Positions 43,683 through 58,166 of a DNA stretch of 64,000 bases are shown here, in pieces; within the stretch, counting starts at the first letter, position 1; every line of letters begins with the position of its first letter. The position numbers were made by a program, and so were the translations under genes. This stretch comes from Agromyces sp. 3263 (GTDB lineage Bacteria > Actinomycetota > Actinomycetes > Actinomycetales > Microbacteriaceae). The stretch covers positions 620,001 through 684,000 of the forward strand of contig NZ_JAVDUV010000001.1 in the NCBI RefSeq assembly GCF_031456545.1, written 5' to 3'. The notes under the pieces were generated by a model, which ran no database searches, was not told the origin of the DNA, and worked only from the letters and a program-made list of their open reading frames with translations.

Positions 43683-45677
43683 TCATCGCCCGACCACCAT
43701 GGCCCAGTCGAAGGCGCCGAGGCGTACGCCGTCGACCTCTTCGCCCGAGACCGCATCGGTGCCGCGCACGACGACGTCGACCGGGTCGCCGCCGTGGTTG
43801 ATGACCGTGACGAGTGCGCCGCGTCGCGCCGCCTCGACGTGGTCGGGCAGGCCGGCGACGACGGGTTCGACGCCTGCGTCGGCGAGCACGTGGTCGACGA
43901 CGGCCTGCACGCCGGCCTCGTCGGGGACGGTGGCGAGGTAGCGGGCGACGCCGCGTCCGGCGCGGCGCGCGGTGAGGGCCGGATGCCCCGCGCGGCGGCC
44001 GCTCGTGAACGACGCCTCGACCGTGGCATCCGTCGCCTCGATCTCCTCGGCGAAGAGGGTGCCGACGGCTGCCCCGAACCCCGAGCCCGCAACCCCCTCG
44101 AATCGCGCTTCCCGTTCGCCGGGTTCACCCGGTGCGGCATCGGGTGGCACGAGGGCGCCGAAGTCCTCGACGCGGATGCCGCTGAGCGGGCCGAGCCGGG
44201 TCGCGAACCCGCCGTCGCGGAACGCGTCGCGCTCGTCGACGACATCGCTGAACGGGCCGGCGAGGAGGTGCCCGCCGCCCTGGACGAACGAGGTGAGCGC
44301 CGCGGCGCCCTCGTCGCGCAACAGGTACAGCAGCGGGGCGATGGCGAGCGCGTACCGGTCGTCGACGCGCTCGGGCGCCACGACGTCGACCTGCACGTGG
44401 CGGCGGTGCAGTGCGCGGTACCAGCGCTGCACGACCGCGAGGTGGTCGAGCCGGTTCTGGGGGTGGTCCGATGCCTCGACGGCCCACCAGTTCTCCCAGT
44501 CGAACACGAGCGCGACCGGGGCGTCACGACCGCCGCCCGGCAGGGTCGGCAGCGCGGCGAGCTGCGCGCCCAGCTCGGTGACCTCGCGCCAGGTGCGCGT
44601 CTCGGTGCCCGCGTGCGGGAGCATCGCCGAGTGGAACTTCTCCGCGCCGGCGCGCGACTGCCTCCACTGGAAGAAGAGGATGCCGTCGGCGCCCCGCCCG
44701 ATCGCCTGCGCGCTGAGCGCCGCCATCTGCCCGGGCGCCTTCGGCGCGTTCGAGGGGCGCCAGTTCAGCGCGTTCGTGGACTGCTCCATGAGGATCCACG
44801 GCACGTCGGGCTTCAGCGAGCGCACGAGGTCGCGCTGGAACGCCGCCGCCCGGAACGACTCGGGGTCGTTCGGGTCGGGATAGGCGTCGTCGCTCACGAG
44901 GTCCAGGTGCTCGGCCCACTGCTGGTAGTTGGCGGGCTTGAACGCGCCCATGAAGTTCGTGGTGATCGGTTGGGTCGCCCCGGCCGCCCGGAGGATCTCG
45001 CGCTCCATGAGGTAGCACTCGAGCAGCATGTCGCTCGTGAACCGGCGGTAGTCGAGCATCTGGCCGGGGTTCAGGCTGTACGGCGCCTTGCGGGGCGGGA
45101 ACACCTCGTCGAACGATCCATAGCGCTGCGACCAGAAGTTCGTGCCCCAGGCCGCGTTGAGCACGTCGACGTCGGCGTACCGATCGGCCAGCCAACGCCG
45201 GAACGCGTCGCGCGCGGCATCCGAGAAGTCCATGTTCAGGTGGCAGCCGTACTCGTTGTTGACGTGCCACATGACGACGGCCGGATGCTGCGCATACCGC
45301 TCGGCGATGGCGGTCACGAGCTCGGCGGCCAGGCGCCGGTACACGGGCGACGACGGCGCGAACTGCTGGCGGCTGCCCGGCCAGTACGTGGCGCCGTTCT
45401 CGTCCTGCGGGAGGAGTTCGGGATACGCGGCGCTCGCCCACGGCGGCGGGGACGCGGTGGCCGTGGCGAGGTCGACGGCGATGCCGCCCTCGTGCAGCAG
45501 GTCGATGACCCGGTCGAGCCAGCCGAAGTCGAACTCGCCCTCGCTGGGCTGGATGCGCGACCAGGCGAAGATGCCGAGGCTCACCATCGTCACGCCGGCC
45601 TCGCGCATGCGCGCGACATCCTCGGGCCAGGTCTCCTCGGGCCACTGCTCGGGGTTGTAGTCGGCGCCGTAGTGCAC
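43683..45677 (-). CDS. GH42 beta-galactosidase
   Basis: 664 residues from GTG 45677 with AAGGAG upstream; this start gives VHYGADYNPEQWPEETWPED, the usual GH42 N-terminus. Acid/base Glu142 in WHVNNEYG, nucleophile Glu298 in ILMEQSTN. Three domains are expected: TIM barrel to about residue 390, trimerisation domain, and a C-terminal beta-sandwich. No signal peptide, so it hydrolyses imported beta-galactosides or galacto-oligosaccharides in the cytoplasm. A LacI-type operator lies 41 bases upstream of the start; the downstream ThuA-like gene overlaps or follows closely. Confidence 0.94.
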   Translation of the reverse strand: MHYGADYNPEQWPEETWPEDVARMREAGVTMVSLGIFAWSRIQPSEGEFDFGWLDRVIDLLHEGGIAVDLATATASPPPWASAAYPELLPQDENGATYWPGSRQQFAPSSPVYRRLAAELVTAIAERYAQHPAVVMWHVNNEYGCHLNMDFSDAARDAFRRWLADRYADVDVLNAAWGTNFWSQRYGSFDEVFPPRKAPYSLNPGQMLDYRRFTSDMLLECYLMEREILRAAGATQPITTNFMGAFKPANYQQWAEHLDLVSDDAYPDPNDPESFRAAAFQRDLVRSLKPDVPWILMEQSTNALNWRPSNAPKAPGQMAALSAQAIGRGADGILFFQWRQSRAGAEKFHSAMLPHAGTETRTWREVTELGAQLAALPTLPGGGRDAPVALVFDWENWWAVEASDHPQNRLDHLAVVQRWYRALHRRHVQVDVVAPERVDDRYALAIAPLLYLLRDEGAAALTSFVQGGGHLLAGPFSDVVDERDAFRDGGFATRLGPLSGIRVEDFGALVPPDAAPGEPGEREARFEGVAGSGFGAAVGTLFAEEIEATDATVEASFTSGRRAGHPALTARRAGRGVARYLATVPDEAGVQAVVDHVLADAGVEPVVAGLPDHVEAARRGALVTVINHGGDPVDVVVRGTDAVSGEEVDGVRLGAFDWAMVVGR

Positions 45678-45717
45678 GGGACTCCTTCGTCGATCGGTCG
45701 GGACTGGGTGGACCCAA

Positions 45718-47265: not shown

Positions 47266-47334
47266 CCCACCGTGGAAATGTCCATGCTCGCGGGTCGATC
47301 CCCTATGGGGCGCGTGCGCCGCGCGGCGTAGCGT
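47266..47334 (+). promoter_or_regulatory. AraC-type tandem operator and -10 box before the importer operon
   Basis: GTCCATGC (47280-47287), CGATC (47296-47300) and a second ATG half-site (47305-47307) lie exactly as in the region before 53581; the ATG centres are 21 bases apart. TAGCGT (47329-47334) is the -10 box, 41 bases after GTCCATGC. CCCACCGTG lies upstream at 47266-47274. The remaining sequence of the 47128-47417 gap shows only these two divergent promoters. Confidence 0.7.
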
Positions 47335-47417
47335 CGCTTTCCGCACCGCATCATCGGGCCTGCATCGCAGGCACGCACCCACCATGCACACGCATCCCCA
47401 TGCAAAGGAGCATCTCC

Positions 47418-48740
47418 ATGCCACAGCGTGACCACCGGCGCCTGCGCACCACCGCGATCCTCGCGGGCGCCGTCGTCGCAACGCTCGCCCTCGCGTCGTG
47501 CTCGGGCGGCGAGTCCGGTTCAGCGGACGAACCGGTCGAGCTCACCTTCCAGTCCTGGGTCCCGAACATCGACCAGGCCGTCGACGCCTTCAACGACGCG
47601 CACGACGACATCCACGTCGAGCTCGAGACCATCACGGCCGGCCCCGACGGCGGGTACGCCAAGATGCTCTCCGCCGTGCAGGCCGGCAACCCCGCCGACG
47701 TCGCGCAGGTCGGCTACGACGCCATCCCCGACTTCCTGGTCAACGGCGCACTCGAGGACATCACGGACTACGTGGCCGACGACGCCGACCGCTTCACGGA
47801 CTGGCAGTGGCAGACCGGCGTGTTCGACGATCACGTCTACGCGATCCCGCAGGCCTCGGGGCCGCTCGGCCAGTTCTACCGCAAGGACATCTTCGACTCC
47901 CTCGGCCTCGCGGCACCCAGCACGTGGGAGGAGTACTACGAGGCGGCCAAGGCGATCCACGCCTCCGACCCCGACCGCTACATCGCGGCGTTCGCATTCA
48001 ACCAGGCGCCCTGGCTGATCGGCCTCTCCCAGCAGGGCGGGGGCGAGTGGTTCGCCACCGAGGGCGATGCATGGAAGGTCGGCATCGACGACGAGGCGAC
48101 ACTGAAGGTCGCCGAGTTCTGGCAGCGGCTCCTCGACGAGGACCTCGTGAAGGTCGAGGCGGACTTCTCGAGCGAGTGGAACGCCGACCTCCAGAACGGC
48201 AACGTCGCGTCGTGGATCTCGGGCTCGTGGGCCGATGCGATCGTGCGCGGCACCGCGCCCGACACCGCGGGCAGCTGGGCGGTCGCACCCATGCCGCAGT
48301 GGTCCGACGGCGAGACCGTGTCGGCGACGTGGGCCGGCGGCTCGGCCAACGTCGTGCTGAAGGGCTCCGAGCACCCGGAGGAGGCGGCCGAGTTCGCGCT
48401 CTGGCTGAACAGCGACCCCGGCAGCGTGAGCACCCTCACGAGCATCGGCGCCGGCTGGCCCGCGATCACCGACCTCGACGCGATCGAGAGCCTCCAGGAC
48501 GACCCCGAGGTGTTCGCGTTCTACGGCGGCCAGGACATCTGGGACGTCTTCGCCGAGTCGGATGCCGCGGTCGCCGCGACGTGGAAGTGGCCGCCGCTGT
48601 CGCAGACGCTGTTCGCCTCGCTGACCGATAACGTCAAGGCGGCCGTCGAGGCGGGCACGCCGCTCACCGACGCCTACATCGCCACCCAGGCGGACTTCGT
48701 CGCCGCCCTCGAGGACAAGGGCATCTCGGTCGCCGAGTGA
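47418..48740 (+). CDS. Solute-binding lipoprotein of the AraC-linked importer
   Basis: 440 residues from the ATG preceded by AAGGAG at seven bases. Signal peptide with lipobox LASC, lipidated Cys28. Mature part: LTFQSWVPNIDQAVDAFNDA, VGYDAIPDFLVNGALEDITD, YAIPQASGPLGQFYRKDIFD and ATWAGGSANVVLKGSEHPEE, the usual CUT1 layout. The ligand is unknown; the linked hydrolase and DUF5107-like genes suggest an unusual plant or microbial oligosaccharide. Confidence 0.9.
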   Translation: MPQRDHRRLRTTAILAGAVVATLALASCSGGESGSADEPVELTFQSWVPNIDQAVDAFNDAHDDIHVELETITAGPDGGYAKMLSAVQAGNPADVAQVGYDAIPDFLVNGALEDITDYVADDADRFTDWQWQTGVFDDHVYAIPQASGPLGQFYRKDIFDSLGLAAPSTWEEYYEAAKAIHASDPDRYIAAFAFNQAPWLIGLSQQGGGEWFATEGDAWKVGIDDEATLKVAEFWQRLLDEDLVKVEADFSSEWNADLQNGNVASWISGSWADAIVRGTAPDTAGSWAVAPMPQWSDGETVSATWAGGSANVVLKGSEHPEEAAEFALWLNSDPGSVSTLTSIGAGWPAITDLDAIESLQDDPEVFAFYGGQDIWDVFAESDAAVAATWKWPPLSQTLFASLTDNVKAAVEAGTPLTDAYIATQADFVAALEDKGISVAE

Positions 48741-48745
48741 CCCGG

Positions 48746-48777
48746 GCGGGCGGTCCGGCTCCGGCCGGGCCGCCCGC
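48746..48777 (+). terminator. Hairpin between binding-protein and permease genes
   Basis: GCGGGCGGTCC (48746-48756) pairs with GGGCCGCCCGC (48767-48777) with one wobble and a ten-base loop, six bases after the binding-protein stop. Confidence 0.55.
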
Positions 48778-48836
48778 TCGCCTTCCCCGGCCGCACCCCG
48801 CGGCATCCGATCGTCCATCACCCGAGGAGCACCGCC

Positions 48837-49763
48837 GTGTCCGCCACTGCCACCGCCCCACCGACCCGACGTCGCCGACCGCGGCTGCCGGCCGCCCTCT
48901 GGGTGCTGCTCGTGCCGTTCCTCGTGATGTTCGCGGCGTTCTTCGTCGCGCCGATCGTCTTCGCGGTGGTCGACAGCATGTTCTCCCAGCAGTCGAGCGG
49001 CCTCGGGCTCGCCGCCGCCACCCGGGAGTTCGTGTTCCTCGACAACTACGCCGCCGCGCTGTCGACTCCCTCGTTCGTCGCGAGCCTCGGCCGCCTCGTC
49101 GCCTTCTCGGCGATCGAGGTGCCGCTCATGGTGGTCTCGGCCCTGGCACTGGCCCTCCTCCTGGGCGCGGCGGCCGCGCGGTTCCCGCGCGCCTTCCGCG
49201 TCACGTACTTCATGCCGTACGGCGTTCCCGGCGTCATCGCGGCGCTGCTCTGGGGCTTCCTGTACATCCCGGCCACCAGCCCGGTGCTGCAGTCGCTCGG
49301 CGCGGTCGGCATCGACGTCGATCCGCTGTCGAGCGACGCGGTGCTCTTCGCCATCGCGAACATCGCCCTGTGGGGGTTCGCGGGCTACAACATGCTCATC
49401 CTCATCGCGGCGCTCGACGCCATCCCCTCCGAGCTGTACGAGGCCGCCCGGCTCGACGGGGCCGGTGAGTGGCGCATGATCTGGCACATCAAGCTGCCGC
49501 TCATCCGTCCCTCGATCGTGCTCATCACCCTCTTCACGATCATCGGCACGCTGCAGCTCTTCGTCGAGCCCCTCGTGCTCCGCCCGCTCACCACCGCCAT
49601 CAGCTCCGACTACACGCCGAACCTCGCCGCCTACAACCAGGCGTTCTCGCAGGGCAACCCGAACCTCGCGGCAGCGATGGCCGTGATCGTGGCGCTCCTC
49701 GCGTTCGCCTTCTCGGCCCTGTTCCTCCGCGTCGTGAACCGGAAGGGGAACCGCGCATGGTGA
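48837..49763 (+). CDS. Sugar ABC permease (MalF-type), AraC-linked importer
   Basis: 308 residues from GTG with GAGGAG upstream. Six helices, first PAALWVLLVPFLVMFAAFFV; EAA loop EAARLDGAGEWRMIWHIKLP. Overlaps the following permease by seven bases. Confidence 0.9.
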   Translation: MSATATAPPTRRRRPRLPAALWVLLVPFLVMFAAFFVAPIVFAVVDSMFSQQSSGLGLAAATREFVFLDNYAAALSTPSFVASLGRLVAFSAIEVPLMVVSALALALLLGAAAARFPRAFRVTYFMPYGVPGVIAALLWGFLYIPATSPVLQSLGAVGIDVDPLSSDAVLFAIANIALWGFAGYNMLILIAALDAIPSELYEAARLDGAGEWRMIWHIKLPLIRPSIVLITLFTIIGTLQLFVEPLVLRPLTTAISSDYTPNLAAYNQAFSQGNPNLAAAMAVIVALLAFAFSALFLRVVNRKGNRAW

Positions 49764-50704
49764 CCACCGACGCCCCCGCCCGCCCCGTCGCGCGCACCCG
49801 CCGACCGGCCGGCCCCGCGGCATCCGGCGCAGCAGCACCCACTCGACGACCACCCGCCACCCGCACCGGCGCGGCCGGCACCGTGCTGGTGAACGCCGCA
49901 CTCGTCGCGGCGTCGGCGTACTTCCTGCTGCCGATCGCCTGGGTGCTGATCGCCGCGACGAAGTCACCGGGCGACCTCTCCTCGACCTTCGGGCTCTGGT
50001 TCTCCGACAGCCCCCAGGCGTGGCAGAACCTCGTCGCCCTGTTCACCCAGGACGACGGCGCCTTCTCGGTGTGGATCCTGAACAGCATCCTGTACTCGGG
50101 GGTCGGCGCCCTGGTGGCGACGGTCATCTCGACGGCGGCCGGCTACGCGTTCGCGAAGTACGACTTCCCGGCGAAGGAGGCGGTCTTCTGGACGATCCTC
50201 GGCGGCGTGCTCGTGCCGGCGACGGTCATCGCGCTGCCGCTGTACTTCCTGCTCAACTCGGTCGCCCTCACGGGAAGCTACTGGAGCGTGCTCCTGCCGT
50301 GCATGGTGAGCCCGTTCGGCGTCTTCCTCGCGCGCATCCACGCGAACGCCTCGGTGCCCGACGAGGTCATCGAGGCGGCCCGCATCGATGGCGCCGGCGA
50401 CCTGCGCATCTTCGGCTCGATCGCCGCGCGCATGATGACCCCGGCGATCGTGACGATCTTCCTCTTCCAGTTCGTGACGATCTGGAACAACTACCTGCTC
50501 CCGCTGGTGATGCTGAGCGACCCCAGGCGATTCCCGATCACCCTCGGCCTGACGCTGTGGAACTCGCAGACCCAGCGCGATCCGTCGTTCACCACCCTGG
50601 TCGTGACCGGATCGGCCGTGTCCGTGGTGCTGCTCGTGGTGCTCATGGTCTCGTTGCAGCGGTTCTGGAAGGCCGACCTCACGGCGGGCGCGACGAAGGG
50701 CTGA
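49757..50704 (+). CDS. Sugar ABC permease (MalG-type), AraC-linked importer
   Basis: 315 residues. A Pro/Arg/Thr-rich cytoplasmic tail of about 40 residues precedes six helices (VNAALVAASAYFLLPIAWVL first). EAA loop EAARIDGAGDLRIFGSIAAR; C-terminus FWKADLTAGATKG. Last gene of the importer operon; a hairpin follows immediately. Confidence 0.9.
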   Translation: MVTTDAPARPVARTRRPAGPAASGAAAPTRRPPATRTGAAGTVLVNAALVAASAYFLLPIAWVLIAATKSPGDLSSTFGLWFSDSPQAWQNLVALFTQDDGAFSVWILNSILYSGVGALVATVISTAAGYAFAKYDFPAKEAVFWTILGGVLVPATVIALPLYFLLNSVALTGSYWSVLLPCMVSPFGVFLARIHANASVPDEVIEAARIDGAGDLRIFGSIAARMMTPAIVTIFLFQFVTIWNNYLLPLVMLSDPRRFPITLGLTLWNSQTQRDPSFTTLVVTGSAVSVVLLVVLMVSLQRFWKADLTAGATKG

Positions 50705-50738
50705 GCGGATGCCGCGGCGCGGCGCACGCGGCATCCGC
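50705..50738. terminator. Bidirectional hairpin between convergent genes
   Basis: GCGGATGCCGCG (50705-50716) and exact complement (50727-50738), ten-base loop, directly after the permease stop and facing the oxidoreductase stop at 50773. Built from the recurrent genome word. Confidence 0.6.
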
Positions 50739-50772
50739 GCGCCGTTGCGGGGGCAGACGCCGAGCCCCGGAC

Positions 50773-52437
50773 TCAGGCGGAGTCGACCTGCCGTTCCAGC
50801 GCGAGGTACTGGTGCGCGTACGCGATCGCCATGCCGCCTTCGCCGACGCCCGCCGCGACGCGCTTGACGGACCCCGAGCGCACGTCGCCCACGGCGAAGA
50901 TCCCGGGCGTGCTCGTCTCGAGCGCGAACGGCCGACGGTCGGCCGTCCACGCCTCGGAGGCGGCGGCGTCCGCGCCCGTGAGCACGAAGCCGTGCACGTC
51001 GCGGGCGACCTCAGGGGGCAGCCAGTCCGTGACGGCATTCGCGCCGATCATCACGAAGACGACGGGGAAGCCGCGTCGCGACGTCTGCCCGGTGGCGCGG
51101 TCGATGACGTCGACCCCCTCGAGGCTTCCCTCGCCGTGCAGGCCCACCACCTCGCTGCGGGTCTCGACGCGGATGCCGTCGTTGGCGGCGATCTGGTCGA
51201 TGAGGTAGCGCGACATGCTCGCCTCGAGCGAGCTGCCGCGCACGAGCATCGTCACCGATCGGGCGTGCCGGGAGAAGAACAGCGCGGCCTGCCCAGCCGA
51301 GTTTCCCGCACCGATGATGCAGACGTCGGCGCCCTTCGCGATGGCGGCGTCGCTGCGCGCGGCCCCGTAGAAGACGCCGTTGCCGAGGTAGCGGTCGACC
51401 GCGGGCAGGGGCAGCGTGCGCCATTCGACGCCGGTGGCCGCGATGACGACCCGGGCTTGCAGGGTCTCGCCACCGTCGAGGACGACCTCGTGCACGGGGT
51501 CGCGCCCCGAGTCACGTCGTCCCCCGTGGGGGCGGATCGCCTCGACGCTGCGGGTCACGACGATCTCGGCCCCGAGGCGCTTCGCCTGCTTCAGCGCCCG
51601 GCTCGCAAGGTCGTCTCCCGAGATCCCGAACGGGAATCCGGTGTAGTTCTCGATGCGCGTGGACGTGCCGGCCTGGCCACCGGGCGCGAGCGACTCGATG
51701 ACCACCGTGCGAAGTCCCTCGGCCGCGCCGTTCACGGCGGCGGTGAGGCCGGCAGGCCCTCCGCCGAGGATGACGACGTCGTAGTCGGCCGACGCGGGCT
51801 CGATGTCGAGCCCCGCGGCACCCGCCACCTCGCGCATCGTCGGGGCCGCCAGCCGGGTCCCGTCGGCCAGTTCGAGGATCGGGTAGGCCTCGCCCTCGGC
51901 CGGGCGTTCGAGGGTCACCCGCTCGAAGACGACCTGGTTCCTCGTGAGGAAGGTCGCCGTGCGGTGGGTCGCGGCATCGTGTCGGGGACCGGTGAGGCGC
52001 ACCTCGATGTCGGGCTGCTCGGCGGCGATCACCTGCAGCGATTCCAGGTAGCGGCGCGCCAGGTCCGCGACGCGGGCCGGGATCGACGGGGCCATCGCCG
52101 CCAGCGTATAGAACGCCGTCACGTCGAGCTTCAGGATGCGGGATGCCTCGGCGGCGCGGCCGCTCGCCGGGAACGGGGTGCTCAGGGTCATCGGCACCTC
52201 GCCGAAGAACCGGCCGGGCGTGCGAACCCCGATCACCCGCTCCTCGCCGTTCACGACCTTGGTGATCTCGGCGCGGCCGTCGACGACGACGAACAGCGCC
52301 CGCTCGTCGCCCTCGTGCGCGAAGTACTCGCCCGGCACGAGGTGGATGTCCTCGACGGCGCCGGCCACGTACTCGAGGGCCGCGTCGGAGAGGGGCGCGA
52401 AGATGTGAATGCCGCGGAGGCCCTCGACGGAGATCAT
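50773..52437 (-). CDS. Cyclic-nucleotide-binding domain fused to a thioredoxin-reductase-like flavoprotein
   Basis: 554 residues. Residues 1-130 form a cNMP-binding beta-roll (GEYFAHEGDERALFVVVDGR; the phosphate-loop region reads FFGEVPMTLSTP). Residues about 140-210 form a small linking domain. The rest is a two-dinucleotide-domain flavoprotein: VVILGGGPAGLTAAVNGAAE binds FAD, VCIIGAGNSAGQAALFF binds NAD(P)H, and GIFAVGDVRSGSVKRVA closes the FAD site. Where thioredoxin reductase has CxxC, this protein has YGAARSD, so disulfide chemistry is not expected. Similar cNMP-flavoprotein fusions occur in many bacteria; their function is unclear to me. No sugar-related role is apparent. Confidence 0.85.
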   Translation of the reverse strand: MISVEGLRGIHIFAPLSDAALEYVAGAVEDIHLVPGEYFAHEGDERALFVVVDGRAEITKVVNGEERVIGVRTPGRFFGEVPMTLSTPFPASGRAAEASRILKLDVTAFYTLAAMAPSIPARVADLARRYLESLQVIAAEQPDIEVRLTGPRHDAATHRTATFLTRNQVVFERVTLERPAEGEAYPILELADGTRLAAPTMREVAGAAGLDIEPASADYDVVILGGGPAGLTAAVNGAAEGLRTVVIESLAPGGQAGTSTRIENYTGFPFGISGDDLASRALKQAKRLGAEIVVTRSVEAIRPHGGRRDSGRDPVHEVVLDGGETLQARVVIAATGVEWRTLPLPAVDRYLGNGVFYGAARSDAAIAKGADVCIIGAGNSAGQAALFFSRHARSVTMLVRGSSLEASMSRYLIDQIAANDGIRVETRSEVVGLHGEGSLEGVDVIDRATGQTSRRGFPVVFVMIGANAVTDWLPPEVARDVHGFVLTGADAAASEAWTADRRPFALETSTPGIFAVGDVRSGSVKRVAAGVGEGGMAIAYAHQYLALERQVDSA

Positions 52438-52455
52438 GCGTTCGACCCGGATGCC

Positions 52456-52479
52456 GCACGGCCCGTCGCACGGCCCGTC
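52456..52479. repeat. 12-bp tandem repeat in the oxidoreductase leader
   Basis: GCACGGCCCGTC twice in succession; a related inverted copy GACGGGCCGT lies at the promoter near 52543. Lies between the putative start of transcription and the start codon. Confidence 0.5.
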
Positions 52480-52526
52480 GCAGTGACCGACGCACTCATC
52501 GCCTCATCCGGTGGCCGCACCCTGCG

Positions 52527-52555
52527 ACGGTATCCGCGCGTGGACGGGCCGTCAA
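52527..52555 (-). promoter_or_regulatory. Promoter of the cNMP-flavoprotein gene
   Basis: Leftward TTGACG (complement 52550-52555), 17-base spacer, TACCGT (52527-52532). Predicted leader of about 80 bases. Confidence 0.55.
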
Positions 52556-52627
52556 CGACTTCGCCACCCCCAGACCGCGCGACACGGCGCGGCCGACCCG
52601 CCCCATGCTCGGCGCCGGTCTGCCAGG

Positions 52628-53491
52628 TCAGCCCTTGCGATGCACGCGGTAGTCGGTGGGGCTCATGCCGTGCACGCGGCTGAACTGCCGCGAGAAGTAG
52701 AACGGGTCGGCGTACCCGACCTCGCGCCCGACCTCGGCGACGTGCAGGTCGGTGGTGTCGAGCAGGCCGCGGGCCCGCGCCATCTTGAGCCCCGTGTGGT
52801 ACGCCAGCACCCCGCCGCCGGTGGCGTCGCGGAAGAGCGCGCCGAGGTGCGACGTCGAGACCCCAACGAGCCGCGCGAGGTCGGACACCCGGATGCCGCC
52901 GTCGATGCGCTCCTCGAGGTACCGCATCGCCCGCTCGAGCGGTTCGCCCTGCTCGGGCAGCTTCCGGTCGACCGCGAGCTGCGTCATCAGCCGCCACGCG
53001 ATGCCCGACACGGACAGGAGCCGAGCCGGGGACTGGTCGCGCTCCAAGCCCGAGACGATCTCATCGAGGAGCACCGTGACGCGATCGACGGCGCGCAGCG
53101 ACACCAGGGGACGTGCGGCGTCCGCGCCGATCGCGGCCCACAGGTCGCCGAGGTCGCTGCCGCGCACGTGACACCACCAGATCGTCCATGGCTCCTCGGC
53201 GTCAGCCCCGTACGAGTGCGGCGACCGAGGCGGGATCAGCGCAGCGGTCGACGGGGTCACGCGCACCCGCGTGCCGTCGACGTCCACCCACCCGGCGCCG
53301 GCCACGCAGACGATGACGATGGCCTCGTCGGCCCCGGCCGGGCGAACGCGGAGATGCCCGTCCGCGCGGGGGAACCACCCGGCATCCGTCACCACCAGTC
53401 GGCGCGTGACCGGCCGCGCGAGCGCCTCGGCGACAGCGGGGCGCGGGACGACGCACAACCGCTGGTGCTCGAACCCGTCGCGCCGTTCCAT
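52628..53491 (-). CDS. AraC-family regulator of the split importer/DUF5107 locus
   Basis: 287 residues. An N-terminal cupin-like AraC sensor domain (VIVCVAGAGWVDVDGTRVRV, LIPPRSPHSYGADAEEPW, IWWCHVRG) is followed by two helix-turn-helix motifs: IRVSDLARLVGVSTSHLGAL and HVAEVGREVGYADPFYFSRQ, ending MSPTDYRVHRKG. Most similar in layout to AraC regulators of sugar uptake such as those for rhamnose or melibiose. No ribosome-binding site is visible before the ATG. Divergent from the DUF5107-like gene, sharing an 89-base region with the tandem operator that also occurs before the importer operon. Confidence 0.88.
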   Translation of the reverse strand: MERRDGFEHQRLCVVPRPAVAEALARPVTRRLVVTDAGWFPRADGHLRVRPAGADEAIVIVCVAGAGWVDVDGTRVRVTPSTAALIPPRSPHSYGADAEEPWTIWWCHVRGSDLGDLWAAIGADAARPLVSLRAVDRVTVLLDEIVSGLERDQSPARLLSVSGIAWRLMTQLAVDRKLPEQGEPLERAMRYLEERIDGGIRVSDLARLVGVSTSHLGALFRDATGGGVLAYHTGLKMARARGLLDTTDLHVAEVGREVGYADPFYFSRQFSRVHGMSPTDYRVHRKG

Positions 53492-53502
53492 TCGTCAATG
53501 GT

Positions 53503-53573
53503 CCCACGGTGTCGAATCGTCCATGCGCACCCCACGATCGGCCATGTCGCCGCACCGGGGCCGCGCGTAGCGT
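53503..53573 (+). promoter_or_regulatory. AraC-type tandem operator and leaderless promoter
   Basis: GTCCATGC (53519-53526), CGATC (53535-53539), second half-site GGCCATG (53540-53546) and -10 box TAGCGT (53568-53573), with spacings identical to the region at 47266. The start codon GTG at 53581 lies eight bases after the -10 box, so the message should begin at or next to the start codon. Confidence 0.7.
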
Positions 53574-53580
53574 GGAGCGC

Positions 53581-56500
53581 GTGACCGACGAGAACCCCAG
53601 GATCGTGCTGCCCGAGGCGCCCGACGAGCAGCGCGAGGCCATCGCGGCGGGCGGCGTCGCCTGCTGGGAGTCGCCGCTCACGATCGACACCTACGAGCCT
53701 GCCGCGCCCGATCGCTACCCGCTCTTCCTCGATCGCCGCGTGTACCAGGGTTCGAGCGGGGCGGTCTACCCCATCCCGTTCACGGACCGGATCCTGCCCG
53801 GGCGCGCGCCGCGCACCTGGCGGGCGATCCACCTCGAGAACCGCTGGGTGCGGCTGGTGCTCCTGCCCGAGCTGGGCGGACGGATCCACATCGGCTACGA
53901 CAAGACCCGCGACTACGACTTCTTCTACCGCAACAACGTCATCAAGCCGGCGCTGGTCGGGCTCGCCGGCCCCTGGGTCTCGGGCGGCGTGGAGTTCAAC
54001 TGGCCGCAGCACCACCGCCCGGCGACCTTCCTCCCGGTCGAGACGCGCCTCGAGCGCCACGACGACGGATCCGTGACGGTGTGGCACTCCGACCTCGACC
54101 AGCTGCAGCGGATGCGGGGCAGCCACGGCATTCGCCTGCGCGGCGACTCGTCGCTCATCGAACTCGAAGCGCGCCTCGTGAACCGCACGGATGCACCCCA
54201 GTCCTTCCTCTGGTGGGCGAACGTCGCCGCTCGCTCGCACGAGCACTACCAGTCCTTCTTCCCCACCGACGTGCGCTACGTCGCCGATCACGCGCGCCGG
54301 GCGATCACCGCCTTCCCCCGCGCCGATCGGCCGTACTACGGCGTGGACTACCCGGCCCTCGCGGCCGAACGGCCTGGCGCCGATCGCCTCGACGTGTACG
54401 CGAACATCCCCGTGCCGACGTCGTACATGGTCACCGACACGGCCGACGACTTCTTCGGCGGCTACGACCACGACGCCGGAGCCGGGTTCGTGCACTGGGC
54501 CGACCGGGCGATCGCGCCGGGCAAGAAGCAGTGGACCTGGGGCGACGGCGAGGTCGGGCGCGCCTGGGATCGGCACCTCACCGACGGCGACGGTCCGTAC
54601 GTCGAGCTCATGGCGGGCATCTTCACCGACAACCAGCCCGACTTCAGCTGGCTGCAGCCGGGCGAGACGCGGCGATTCCACCAGTACTGGTACCCGATCC
54701 AGGACATCGGCCCGGCGGTGCAGGCGACGCTCGACGCGGCGATCGGGCTCGAGGTCGACGGATGCCGCGTGCGGCTGGGTGTCGCGACGACGGGCGTGCG
54801 CGCCTCCACGCGGGTCGAGCTGCGGCGGGCGGAAGCCGTGATCGCCGAATGGACCCTGCCGATCGAGCCCGGGCACCCCTTCGTCACCGAGCTGGAGCTC
54901 GGGGCATCCGCGACCCGCGACGACCTCGTCGTGGTCGTCACCGACGGCGGGCGCGAGCTCGTGCGCTGGCGACGCCACGCGGTGCCGGCCGGTGAGCCCT
55001 GGGTGGCGACCGAGCCGCCGGCCCCGGCCGAGATCGCCAGTGCCGACGAGCTGGTGCTCACGGGCGTGCACCTCGTGCAGTACCGTCACCCCACGAGGCC
55101 CGCCGAGCCGTACTTCGCCGAGGCGGTTCGACGGGACCCGGGTGATTCGCGCGCCCGCCTCGCCCTGGCTCGGCTCGCCCACGACCGCGGCGACCTCGAG
55201 GAGGCCCTCGACCACCTCGATCTCGCGGTGGCGCGGCTCTCGCGCCGCAACCTCAACCCCGAGCGCGGCGACGCGCACCTGCTGCGCGGCCTCGTACTGG
55301 AGCGGCTCGGGCGATCGGATGAGGCGGCGGACGCGTTCGGCAAGGCCTCATGGGACGGCGCCGTCGCCCTGCCCGCCTCGCTCGGACGCGCCCGGCTCGC
55401 ACAACGATCGGGCGACGCCGAACGCGCCCTCGGGTTCGCGGATGCCGCGGTGCGCGCCGATCCCGGCAGCGGGCAGGCCGTGGCGGCTCGGGTCGTGGCG
55501 CTCCGCTCGCTCGGCGACGGCGCGACGGCGCGCGCGTCACTCGCGTCGGCTCGTGCCGAGGATCCCCTCGACCCGCTCCTCGCGGCCCTCGACGACGCGC
55601 TCGACCCTGTGGATCCGCGAACGCTCCTCACGATCGCCCACGAGCTCCACCGGCTCGGCGACGCCGACCGCGCCATCCCGCTCGCTCGGCGTGCCGCGAC
55701 GATGGGTCCGGGCCCGTTCGGCAACCCGGCGCCGCTCGCCGCCTACGCGCTCGCGGTGTTCCTCGACACGGCCGGTGATGCGGCCGGAGCTCGGACGGCG
55801 CGCGCCGCGGCCCGGCGCGCGAGCCCCCTGCTCGCTTTCCCCGCGGGCCTCGACGACCTCGCCGTGCTGCTCGCCGCCGTCGACGCCGACGCCACCGACG
55901 CGCGCGCGCATGGCTACCTCGGCTGCTGGCTCCTCGCCGTCGGGCGAGTGGAGGACGCCCTGGTCCACCTCGAGACGGCGACCCTCGGCGGCGCTGACGA
56001 CCCCGTGGTGTGGCGGAATGCCGCGATCGCGATGGTCAAGTCGGGCGGCGACCTCGCCCGGGCCGACCGGCGGTATGCGCGAGCGCTGGAGCTCAGTGCC
56101 GGCGACGCCAGGCTCGCCTACGAACGCGACCAGCTCGCCGCGGTGCGCGGCGTCGATGCCGCCTCGCGGCTCGCCGCCATCGAGGGGGCCGGCGCCCAGG
56201 TCCTCGTGCGCGACGACCTCGCGATCGAGTACGCGGGCCTGCTCGTCGAGGTGGGGCGAGCCGGCGACGCGCTCGCGTTCCTCGACGGCCGCGAGTTCCA
56301 GCCGTTCGAGGGCGGCGAGGGCCGCGTGATCGCGGTGTTCGACCGCGCCAGCGCCGCCGTCGCCCGCGAGCTGCTCCCGTCGGACCCCGAGTCCGCCCGC
56401 GCGCTGCTGCGAAGCGGCATCCGAGTGCCCGAGCACCTCGGCGAGGGACGCCATCCGGCCGACGTCGTCGCGGAGCGATTCGTGCTCCTCGGCGACGCCG

Positions 56501-56862
56501 AACTGGCGCTCGGCAACGTCGATGCGGCGGAGGCGGCCTGGCGTCGGGCCCGCGACGTCGACGGACCCCTCGCCGCGACCGGGCACGTCGTCGACGCGCG
56601 CGACGGGTGGGTCGGCCTCGCGCACCTGCGCCTGGGCGAGCACGCCGAGGCGCAACGCGTGTGGGCGAGCCTCGAAGCCAGGGCGGCCTCCCTCGAGGCG
56701 TCCGCGGACCGCGTGGACTACTTCGCCACGTCGCTGCCCGAACTGCTGCTGTTCCCGGTCGACACCGCCGAACGCCGCGCATCCGAGGCGGCGGCGCTCC
56801 GCGAACTGGCGGCGCAGGGCCGACACGAGGCGGACGCCCGGGCACAGGAGGCACTGGCATGA
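53581..56862 (+). CDS. DUF5107-like domain protein with C-terminal TPR repeats
   Basis: 1093 residues from GTG. Residues about 40-350 look like a DUF5107-type beta-sandwich, reminiscent of galactose-mutarotase-like domains: WRAIHLENRWVRLVLLPELG, YDKTRDYDFFYRNNVIKPAL, WVSGGVEFNWPQHHRPATF and WTWGDGEVGRAWDRHLTDGD. A connecting beta domain follows to about 500. The remainder is tetratricopeptide-like: AEAVRRDPGDSRARLALARL, LEEALDHLDLAVARL and many Ala/Leu/Gly helices to the end. No signal peptide or membrane segment. The fold suggests carbohydrate binding or processing, but no function is known to me. It overlaps the following hydrolase (ATGA) and appears leaderless and AraC-controlled. Confidence 0.8.
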   Translation: MTDENPRIVLPEAPDEQREAIAAGGVACWESPLTIDTYEPAAPDRYPLFLDRRVYQGSSGAVYPIPFTDRILPGRAPRTWRAIHLENRWVRLVLLPELGGRIHIGYDKTRDYDFFYRNNVIKPALVGLAGPWVSGGVEFNWPQHHRPATFLPVETRLERHDDGSVTVWHSDLDQLQRMRGSHGIRLRGDSSLIELEARLVNRTDAPQSFLWWANVAARSHEHYQSFFPTDVRYVADHARRAITAFPRADRPYYGVDYPALAAERPGADRLDVYANIPVPTSYMVTDTADDFFGGYDHDAGAGFVHWADRAIAPGKKQWTWGDGEVGRAWDRHLTDGDGPYVELMAGIFTDNQPDFSWLQPGETRRFHQYWYPIQDIGPAVQATLDAAIGLEVDGCRVRLGVATTGVRASTRVELRRAEAVIAEWTLPIEPGHPFVTELELGASATRDDLVVVVTDGGRELVRWRRHAVPAGEPWVATEPPAPAEIASADELVLTGVHLVQYRHPTRPAEPYFAEAVRRDPGDSRARLALARLAHDRGDLEEALDHLDLAVARLSRRNLNPERGDAHLLRGLVLERLGRSDEAADAFGKASWDGAVALPASLGRARLAQRSGDAERALGFADAAVRADPGSGQAVAARVVALRSLGDGATARASLASARAEDPLDPLLAALDDALDPVDPRTLLTIAHELHRLGDADRAIPLARRAATMGPGPFGNPAPLAAYALAVFLDTAGDAAGARTARAAARRASPLLAFPAGLDDLAVLLAAVDADATDARAHGYLGCWLLAVGRVEDALVHLETATLGGADDPVVWRNAAIAMVKSGGDLARADRRYARALELSAGDARLAYERDQLAAVRGVDAASRLAAIEGAGAQVLVRDDLAIEYAGLLVEVGRAGDALAFLDGREFQPFEGGEGRVIAVFDRASAAVARELLPSDPESARALLRSGIRVPEHLGEGRHPADVVAERFVLLGDAELALGNVDAAEAAWRRARDVDGPLAATGHVVDARDGWVGLAHLRLGEHAEAQRVWASLEARAASLEASADRVDYFATSLPELLLFPVDTAERRASEAAALRELAAQGRHEADARAQEALA

Positions 56863-58166
56863 CCGATCGCTACCTCGGCACGCCGGTGCTGCCCCCGACA
56901 CCGGATCCCTCGCGCACGGGCCCGGTGCCCGACCACCTGCCGCGCCGCCTCGCGATCTGCCTCTGGGACTTCTCCTGGTACACGCGTGCCGGCGAGGGCG
57001 AACCCTTCGACGACGTCGACCGCGCGATGGCCGAGACCGCCGACCGCGGTTACAACGCCGTGCGCATCTGCGCCGCTCCGCTCCTCGTGGCCGGCGACCT
57101 CGGGCTCGAGGGGCTCGCGACCGACCTTCCCGTCGAGGGACTCGGGCCTGCGCCGACCGGCGGGTTCTTCGGGCAGCGCACCCGCTGGTACGACACCCCC
57201 GGCGGCTACCGGCTCGACGTCAGGGCTCGCCTGTTCGAGCTCCTCGAGGCGGCACGACGACACGGCATGGTGGTGATCCTCGCGAGCTGGGAGTACCAGC
57301 AGTCGCCGTCGTTCGCGGGCGACCCGCGCTGGTTCGACGCCATCGACGCCGTGCCGCTCGGACGCCGCTACGACGTGCTCGCCGACGCCTTCGCACGACT
57401 GCTCGACGACGTGCGTGCCGCGGGGCTCATCGACGTCGTCGCGTTCACCGAGCTGCACAACGAGGTCGACTTCTCGATCCTGCCGCCGGTGGAGCAGGGA
57501 GGCGAGGCCGCCATCGAGCGGCTGCGCACCCGGCATCCCGACCAGCTCGTCACGGTGAGCTACGGCAAGCCGCCGCACCTCGCCATGCACCGGCTCTCCC
57601 CCGCCCTGGCCGTCGCGCAGTTCCACGTCTACAGTTACGGCGTGCTCGACGCGCTGCAGCGTCGCATCGACATCCGCTCCGAGGGCAGCGAGGGCTTCCC
57701 GAACACGGAGCTCCGCGCGCTCCTCCGCACCGATGCGCCCACGGTCGCCGGCTACGGCCGGCCCGCCGAGTGGAAGCTGCGGGCCACGGTGATCACCGAC
57801 CAGATGGTCTACGGCTACGACTGGATCGACGCCGACGCCTGGGACGTCTGGCTCCTCGACCACTACGGCGAGCACCGCGAGGTCATGCTGCGCGAGATCG
57901 AGTCGCGCGTCGTCGCGATCGCGGAGTGGGCGCGGTGGCGAGGCGTGCCCGCGGTGATCGGCGAAGGCTGGGTCGGCTACACGCCGCGCGACGGTTGGTT
58001 CGAGGAGAGCCCCGTCGGGCGGTCGCTCGCCGAGCACGGCATCCGCACCGCACTCGCGCACGGCGTCTGGGGCGTCGTCGCGTGCTCCAACGCGGCGCCC
58101 CACCACCCCATGTGGGCGGATGCCGCGTGGCAGCGCCGCGTGAACCTGCTCGTCACCGCCGGCTGA
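56859..58166 (+). CDS. Cellulase-like (GH-A clan) hydrolase of unknown specificity
   Basis: 435 residues, no signal peptide. A TIM-barrel hydrolase: LAICLWDFSWYTRAGEGEPF at strand 1, the candidate acid/base Glu202 in FTELHNEVDF at the end of strand 4, and the candidate nucleophile Glu369 in VIGEGWVGYTP at strand 7. It matches the 'cellulase-like' family pattern rather than a characterised GH family. Translationally coupled to the DUF5107-like gene. Expected to cleave the sugar imported by the 47418-50704 system; the linkage is unknown. Confidence 0.75.
   Translation: MTDRYLGTPVLPPTPDPSRTGPVPDHLPRRLAICLWDFSWYTRAGEGEPFDDVDRAMAETADRGYNAVRICAAPLLVAGDLGLEGLATDLPVEGLGPAPTGGFFGQRTRWYDTPGGYRLDVRARLFELLEAARRHGMVVILASWEYQQSPSFAGDPRWFDAIDAVPLGRRYDVLADAFARLLDDVRAAGLIDVVAFTELHNEVDFSILPPVEQGGEAAIERLRTRHPDQLVTVSYGKPPHLAMHRLSPALAVAQFHVYSYGVLDALQRRIDIRSEGSEGFPNTELRALLRTDAPTVAGYGRPAEWKLRATVITDQMVYGYDWIDADAWDVWLLDHYGEHREVMLREIESRVVAIAEWARWRGVPAVIGEGWVGYTPRDGWFEESPVGRSLAEHGIRTALAHGVWGVVACSNAAPHHPMWADAAWQRRVNLLVTAG

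Follow-up and report, generated by a model that had tools for sequence, protein, structure and literature searches.

A probable tandem AraC-type operator at the promoters of a sugar importer operon and a DUF5107 operon in Agromyces sp. 3263

When analyzing a 64,000-nucleotide stretch of the genome of Agromyces sp. 3263 (the window; positions are counted from its first letter), we found the same spaced motif at two promoters 6.2 kb apart, one before a sugar importer operon (47418-50704) and one before an operon for a DUF5107 protein and a cellulase-like protein (53581-58166). A gene encoding an AraC-family protein (52628-53491) lies beside the second promoter. Judging from sequence comparison, it is very probable that this protein binds both operators as a dimer, activates both operons, and probably regulates its own gene. 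An earlier sequence-only reading of the window had proposed that the transporter and the hydrolase pair form one regulon; the operator stands in both promoters and recurs before the orthologous operons in relatives, which argues for that proposal. Though well conserved, the locus is an ordinary AraC-type regulon of a known kind.

Operator sites at the two promoters

The sequence GTCCATGC begins at 47280 before the importer operon and at 53519 before the DUF5107 gene. At both places it is followed, after 8 further bases, by CGATC; the distance from ATG to ATG is 21 bases; and TAGCGT, the probable -10 hexamer, begins 41 further bases past GTCCATGC (47329-47334 and 53568-53573), the pattern spanning 47280-47334 in one promoter and 53519-53573 in the other. 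Direct reading bore out every distance given in the sequence-only reading. It had also held that the intervening bases differ and that the motif is a conserved signal rather than a recent duplication. The bases outside the shared pattern are mostly unlike between the two promoters, and recent duplication of one promoter was ruled out because there is little in common beyond the operator and the -10 hexamer and each site is separately conserved in relatives.

Refinement on 195 sites gave the consensus CRTCGGATCGTCCA(T/G)G, N10, GATCGGCCAT(G/T), a pair of direct half-sites with a 21-bp spacing and a -10 hexamer downstream. Conservation is stronger in half-site 1 than in half-site 2, and each covers about 15 bp, longer than first described. 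At the importer promoter, half-site 1 is GTGGAAATGTCCATGC (47272-47287), and the ATG of half-site 2 (GATCCCCTATGG, 47297-47308) is 21 bp past that of half-site 1. The DUF5107 operator consists of half-site 1 (GTCGAATCGTCCATGC, 53511-53526) and half-site 2 (GATCGGCCATGT, 53536-53547), and a GTG start codon comes 7 nucleotides (nt) after its TAGCGT. All these features are on the forward strand; on the opposite strand, half-site 1 of the DUF5107 operator is near the -35 position of araC. The promoter-proximal half-site (half-site 2) sits on the -35 position, where the hexamers 17 bp from TAGCGT (TGGGGC and TGTCGC) are both poor.

By itself, GTCCATGC is not special, occurring 5 times in the window against 2.74 times expected by shuffling, and 12 of 100 shuffles reach 5. 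The spaced pattern was found at only two places in the 4.07-Mb genome, each with 0 mismatches, when up to 3 mismatches were allowed and the -10 hexamer was relaxed to TANNNT, a count that uses the motif only as the sequence-only reading had written it. Read backwards, it gave no hit in the same 4.07 Mb. Many matches at unrelated genes would have spoken against a specific signal, and the whole genome has these 2 sites. A sequence model of 50 operators, searched against the genome, gave the window sites E values of 5.1e-8 and 4.6e-4, which are not independent scores, as the model was trained on both sites among others; the third-ranked of the 18 listed genome places reached only 0.196. The regulon of this genome appears to comprise the two promoters only. 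Two further matches of 10 bits each were taken as chance: a single half-site at 48813, where a gap separates the gene for the solute-binding protein from the permease genes, and one within araC at 53184.

Conservation across actinobacteria

Comparison with relatives shows the operator and its spacing, where it stands with respect to the -10 hexamer, its tie to the AraC gene, and the set of operons. Among 199 related genomes, the window's own included, 52 encode an AraC orthologue (42 to 100% identity, at least 225 bits), and the next match below this set has 83 bits. The loci of these 52, the best 80 of 549 from named genomes, and the window made up the 133 loci compared, 122 of which are distinct. 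Among the best 80 of the 549, the regulator occurs in at least 25 named genera, with Agromyces as the nearest named relatives. Commonly, though not universally, the importer comes first, then AraC in reverse orientation, then DUF5107 and the cellulase-like gene. One locus (L102) is titled Planococcus sp. APC 4015, yet it is Microbacterium-like, and the organism name may be wrong.

A first matrix was built from 17 sites of 11 loci (the window and loci with an AraC identity of at least 75%) and run over both strands of the whole fetched locus (up to 20 kb) in the 111 untrained distinct loci. In 75 of the 111, its best match fell on a target promoter, compared with a mean of 1.75 and a maximum of 6 for 40 column-shuffled matrices and 0 for the mirror matrix. 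A refined matrix, itself trained on the compared loci, gave 202 matches above 12 bits versus 3 in reversed sequence. It placed an operator before all 36 importer orthologues and 87 of the 98 DUF5107 genes in distinct loci. Where a locus has both importer and DUF5107, both carry the operator in 31 of 33 cases (25 of the 27 untrained by the first matrix), and some site of at least 12 bits is present in 117 of the 122 distinct loci. The absence of conservation upstream of orthologous loci, which the sequence-only reading had named as evidence against itself, was not what we saw: the motif is kept before orthologous operons, though not at every locus. The strict pattern of that reading was rejected as a ranking tool in relatives, being too rigid for distant loci (with the full pattern, 24 of 52 loci had all their best matches at a promoter, and with the operator alone, 22 of 52); the weight matrix was better.

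The operator follows the operon start when operons are rearranged. It stands before the importer in L055, where the importer, cellulase-like, and DUF5107 genes are in one row. Genes preceded by it in other loci encode a GH97 enzyme and a short-chain dehydrogenase (both in L130, Planotetraspora), a GH35 enzyme (L053), a GH43 enzyme (L143), and a periplasmic binding protein (L056). Six operator-preceded proteins from other loci were scanned, the sixth being without a Pfam match. Five loci from Planotetraspora and Streptosporangium (L130, L131, L135, L136, and L162) keep the AraC orthologue and operators, and DUF5107 was not found in their fetched 18.9 kb; L130, where the GH97 enzyme and the dehydrogenase come after operators, is the only one of the five that was scanned.

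For the promoter geometry, 129 promoters of untrained loci were picked by half-site 1 alone. In 59 of them a second CCAT stood at offset 23, 21 bp past that of half-site 1, and no other offset in the range 9 to 59 had one in more than 6; TANNNT was at offset 49 in 62 and at offset 50 in 29, and in at most 3 elsewhere. Because only half-site 1 had been used for picking, the second half-site and the -10 hexamer both emerge unprompted. With the full operator matrix, which ends at offset 29, TANNNT was at 48 to 50 in 119 of 143 sites (86 at 49, 32 at 50, and 1 at 48). Genome rarity, the matrix controls, this unprompted geometry, and the reversed-sequence control rule out chance.

Of 82 DUF5107 starts placed by homology, 52 were 49 to 65 nt past the first base of the operator, with 33 of the 52 at 61 or 62, and the remainder were mostly 68 to 82 nt past it. 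Since the GTG start codon of the window gene is 7 nt after the -10 hexamer, the DUF5107 mRNA is probably leaderless. The araC mRNA is likewise predicted to be leaderless, because in 61 of 86 loci a -10-like NANNNT hexamer is conserved exactly 12 nt before its start codon, against 12 loci at most for any other position; the candidate of the window is GACCAT (53498-53503, reverse strand), which starts 12 nt before the araC start codon. From this arrangement we predict a divergent pair of leaderless mRNAs, half-site 1 being close to the -35 position of araC.

The AraC-family protein as putative regulator

The two operators resemble that of Escherichia coli araBAD (MG1655), where TCCATA and ACCTGA are 21 bp apart, as the window half-sites are. 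From TCCATA to TACTGT, which we take to be the -10 hexamer of araBAD, there are 47 nt, compared with 48 or 49 here. The sequence-only reading had called tandem half-sites two helical turns apart next to -35 typical of AraC-family activators. The geometry agrees with that of araI1-araI2 within 1 to 2 bp; TCCAT is in the distal half-site of both, and in both the distal half-site is better conserved than the proximal one. The proteins are also alike, each with an N-terminal sugar-binding domain and a two-HTH domain. They are 27% identical over 250 residues, the second recognition helix is well kept (GYADPFYFSR versus GFDDQLYFSR), and E. coli AraC is the nearest to the DNA-binding domain of the window protein among solved structures. 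Unlike with E. coli AraC, the first box is not TAGC, and the putative regulon consists of a sugar importer and glycosidase-like genes. Parts of one report describe araI1 as well conserved and I2 as more variable and next to -35 (PMC2893085). MtlR-type AraC/XylS activators of Pseudomonas, as described in parts of another (PMC4514859), have the same tandem direct half-sites by -35, the upstream one stronger and the downstream one weaker, with different half-site sequences and effectors.

Because of the araBAD-like layout and the 27% identity with a kept recognition helix, the window protein most likely acts like AraC, activating from the -35 site. It is improbable that it is mainly a repressor which the inducer releases from these operators. 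Half-site 2 does cover the -35 position, so that position alone would also suit repression, which counts against activation, and the MG1655 annotation names E. coli AraC a dual regulator. However, AraC and MtlR activate from just such tandem direct half-sites by -35 (PMC4514859, PMC2893085), and the poor -35 hexamers are as expected of activator-dependent promoters.

We therefore favor activation, and it is from sequence that we infer binding, dimerization, activation rather than repression, and autoregulation. The AraC-family protein would bind as a dimer to the two direct half-sites, 21 bp or two helical turns apart, whose cores in the DUF5107 operator are ATCGTCCATG and ATCGGCCATG. With the proximal half-site on -35, the bound protein could touch RNA polymerase, and when the inducing sugar is present it would switch on both the importer operon and the DUF5107/cellulase-like operon. 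The second operator lies inside the 89-bp divergent region with half-site 1 at about the expected -35 position of araC, so the protein probably limits its own synthesis.

The sequence-only reading took the neighboring AraC gene as the partner of the operator, a proposal supported by co-occurrence and by one genome with an unlinked araC. DUF5107 is present in all 52 genomes with the AraC orthologue and, at E ≤ 1e-50, in 4 of the remaining 147; around the DUF5107 start of those 4 no operator was found, the best scores being 2.2 to 4.9 bits in the 2.1 to 3.3 kb fetched. The unlinked case is G070, where the AraC gene (at 674977) and DUF5107 (near 179400) are about 0.5 Mb apart on the same contig: a 34-bit operator, a site outside the training set, precedes DUF5107, and there is none beside the AraC gene. 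Strong matches to the 50-operator model (E ≤ 1e-3) number 34 in the 199 genomes, 30 in genomes with the orthologue and 4 in genomes without it; only strong matches discriminate genomes with the regulator.

That another regulator, perhaps an AraC paralogue, binds the motif and leaves the neighboring AraC a bystander is very unlikely. The genome does hold 9 matches to the AraC query at E ≤ 1e-3, the best other one listed having 47.6 bits, but both the co-occurrence, with operators lacking in the four DUF5107 genomes without AraC, and the operator that remains in G070, the one genome with a distant AraC, argue against it. It is scarcely credible that two G+C-rich promoters share the motif by coincidence or that it is a general promoter element with no link to AraC. 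GTCCATGC by itself occurs no less often than shuffling predicts, and TAGCGT is an ordinary -10 hexamer, but the full motif has two sites only in 4.07 Mb, is conserved before orthologous operons in many genera, and was not found before DUF5107 of the four genomes without the orthologue.

Several observations weigh against the AraC-family protein as regulator of a conserved operator. In three of the four genomes with DUF5107 and no AraC orthologue, the DUF5107 protein is only distantly related (37 to 40% identity), so that this control rests mainly on the fourth (G075, 49%). A few of the 30 strong matches are outside the locus or inside unrelated genes, as in G015 (L199), and 188 of the 199 genomes, regulator or not, yield weak model matches (E up to 0.5), which are uninformative. 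Nor is the motif constant: T and G are about equally frequent at position 5 of half-site 1, and half-site 2 is variable. The best match of the first matrix was off the expected promoters in 36 of the 111 untrained loci; 13 of these have a match above 20 bits elsewhere, in some cases before GH97, GH35, or GH43 genes, and the rest have weaker ones. DUF5107 is without an operator in 11 of 98 loci, and 5 of the 122 distinct loci (L063, L066, L077, L082, and L138) have no site of 12 bits, although two of them (L066 and L077) do have DUF5107 beside AraC.

Among the genomes without the orthologue, G106 has a strong match inside a gene (L197). G029, an Agromyces-group genome with neither the AraC orthologue nor DUF5107, has a strong lone operator of 27 bits between GH42 and alpha/beta hydrolase genes (L183, G029:C1:616734), likely a relict of a lost locus.

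No description of this operator or regulon was found in the literature searched, judged by titles and abstract openings. The specific regulator-operator pair, conserved in actinobacteria, shows which genes are likely co-induced and how widely the operator layout of E. coli AraC extends. A bolder reading, which we hold only tentatively, is that an actinobacterial AraC subfamily kept nearly the whole E. coli operator grammar at 27% identity while transporters and glycosidases entered and left its regulon, that it drives divergent leaderless promoters from one 89-bp region, and that DUF5107 would serve beta-galactoside or plant arabinogalactan breakdown.

Genes of the locus and clues to the substrate

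The importer operon, on the forward strand, encodes a sugar ATP-binding cassette (ABC) importer solute-binding protein (PF01547, 47418-48740) and two permeases (PF00528, 48837-49763 and 49757-50704), with no ATPase gene directly after the permeases. On the reverse strand are a flavoprotein gene with cNMP-binding and thioredoxin-reductase-like parts (50773-52437) and the gene for the AraC-family regulator (287 amino acids [aa], 52628-53491). The regulator has an N-terminal ligand-binding domain (AraC_binding, PF02311; 72.3 bits, cutoff 21.1) and a C-terminal double HTH domain (HTH_18, PF12833, and PF00165; 66 and 56.7 bits, cutoffs 33.6 and 26.6). By comparative sequence, its putative operators also have the layout of the AraC/XylS family, tandem direct half-sites at -35 with a spacing of about 21 bp. 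It is not an arabinose regulator by the NCBIfam cutoff, since it has 96.9 bits against the 208 of equivalog NF007860. Forward again, the second operon encodes the DUF5107 and TPR protein (1,093 aa, 53581-56862), beta-rich in its N-terminal part and then made of helical repeats, and the cellulase-like protein (PF12876, 435 aa, 56859-58166), a glycosidase-like barrel whose ATG overlaps the DUF5107 stop codon.

The sequence-only reading described the flavoprotein gene as unrelated and splitting the regulon. No operator was seen before it and it is present in only 4 of the 122 distinct loci, by which it was ruled out as a regulon member. The last permease lies upstream of AraC with a gap below 400 bp in 28 of 37 such loci; from these gaps and the 4 of 122, the flavoprotein gene is absent between transporter and AraC in most relatives and appears to be a lineage-specific insert.

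Through the regulon, the DUF5107 protein and the unclassified glycosidase-like protein are linked to the same importer, and their substrate may be sought through regulon inducers. The best solved relatives of the solute-binding protein are 6q5g and 6h0h, which are distant and similar only overall. Parts of one report present 6H0H (Bal6GBP) as a beta-1,6-galactobiose binder of Bifidobacterium animalis, from a locus that pairs an importer with a GH42 beta-galactosidase (PMC8106489). The window likewise has a GH42 gene near the importer (43683-45680), though no operator was seen before it. A galactan or arabinogalactan as the source would agree with the GH35 and GH43 genes that the operator precedes in relatives. 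Our guess is that the inducer is a beta-galactoside oligosaccharide.

The name DUF5107 gave no lead to the substrate, the literature mention being on another subject by its title and the nearest solved relative being uncharacterized. The DUF5107 model (predicted local distance difference test [pLDDT] score of 86.8) first matches 5cd6, an uncharacterized Parabacteroides protein, and the other listed fold matches look like TPR or helical-repeat proteins. The model of the cellulase-like protein is a barrel (pLDDT 82.6) with its best match to 3gyc (template modeling [TM] score of 0.63) and further matches to GH5 and GH1 enzymes at low TM scores (0.28 to 0.48). Two glutamates, E202 (part of an NE pair) and E369, do not vary among 21 sequences and may be the catalytic pair of a clan GH-A-like glycosidase. 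The regulon lies in a large carbohydrate-use region (38920-63414) that also contains GH42, alpha-L-fucosidase, glycerate kinase, and FGGY kinase genes and at least one further sugar-binding protein.

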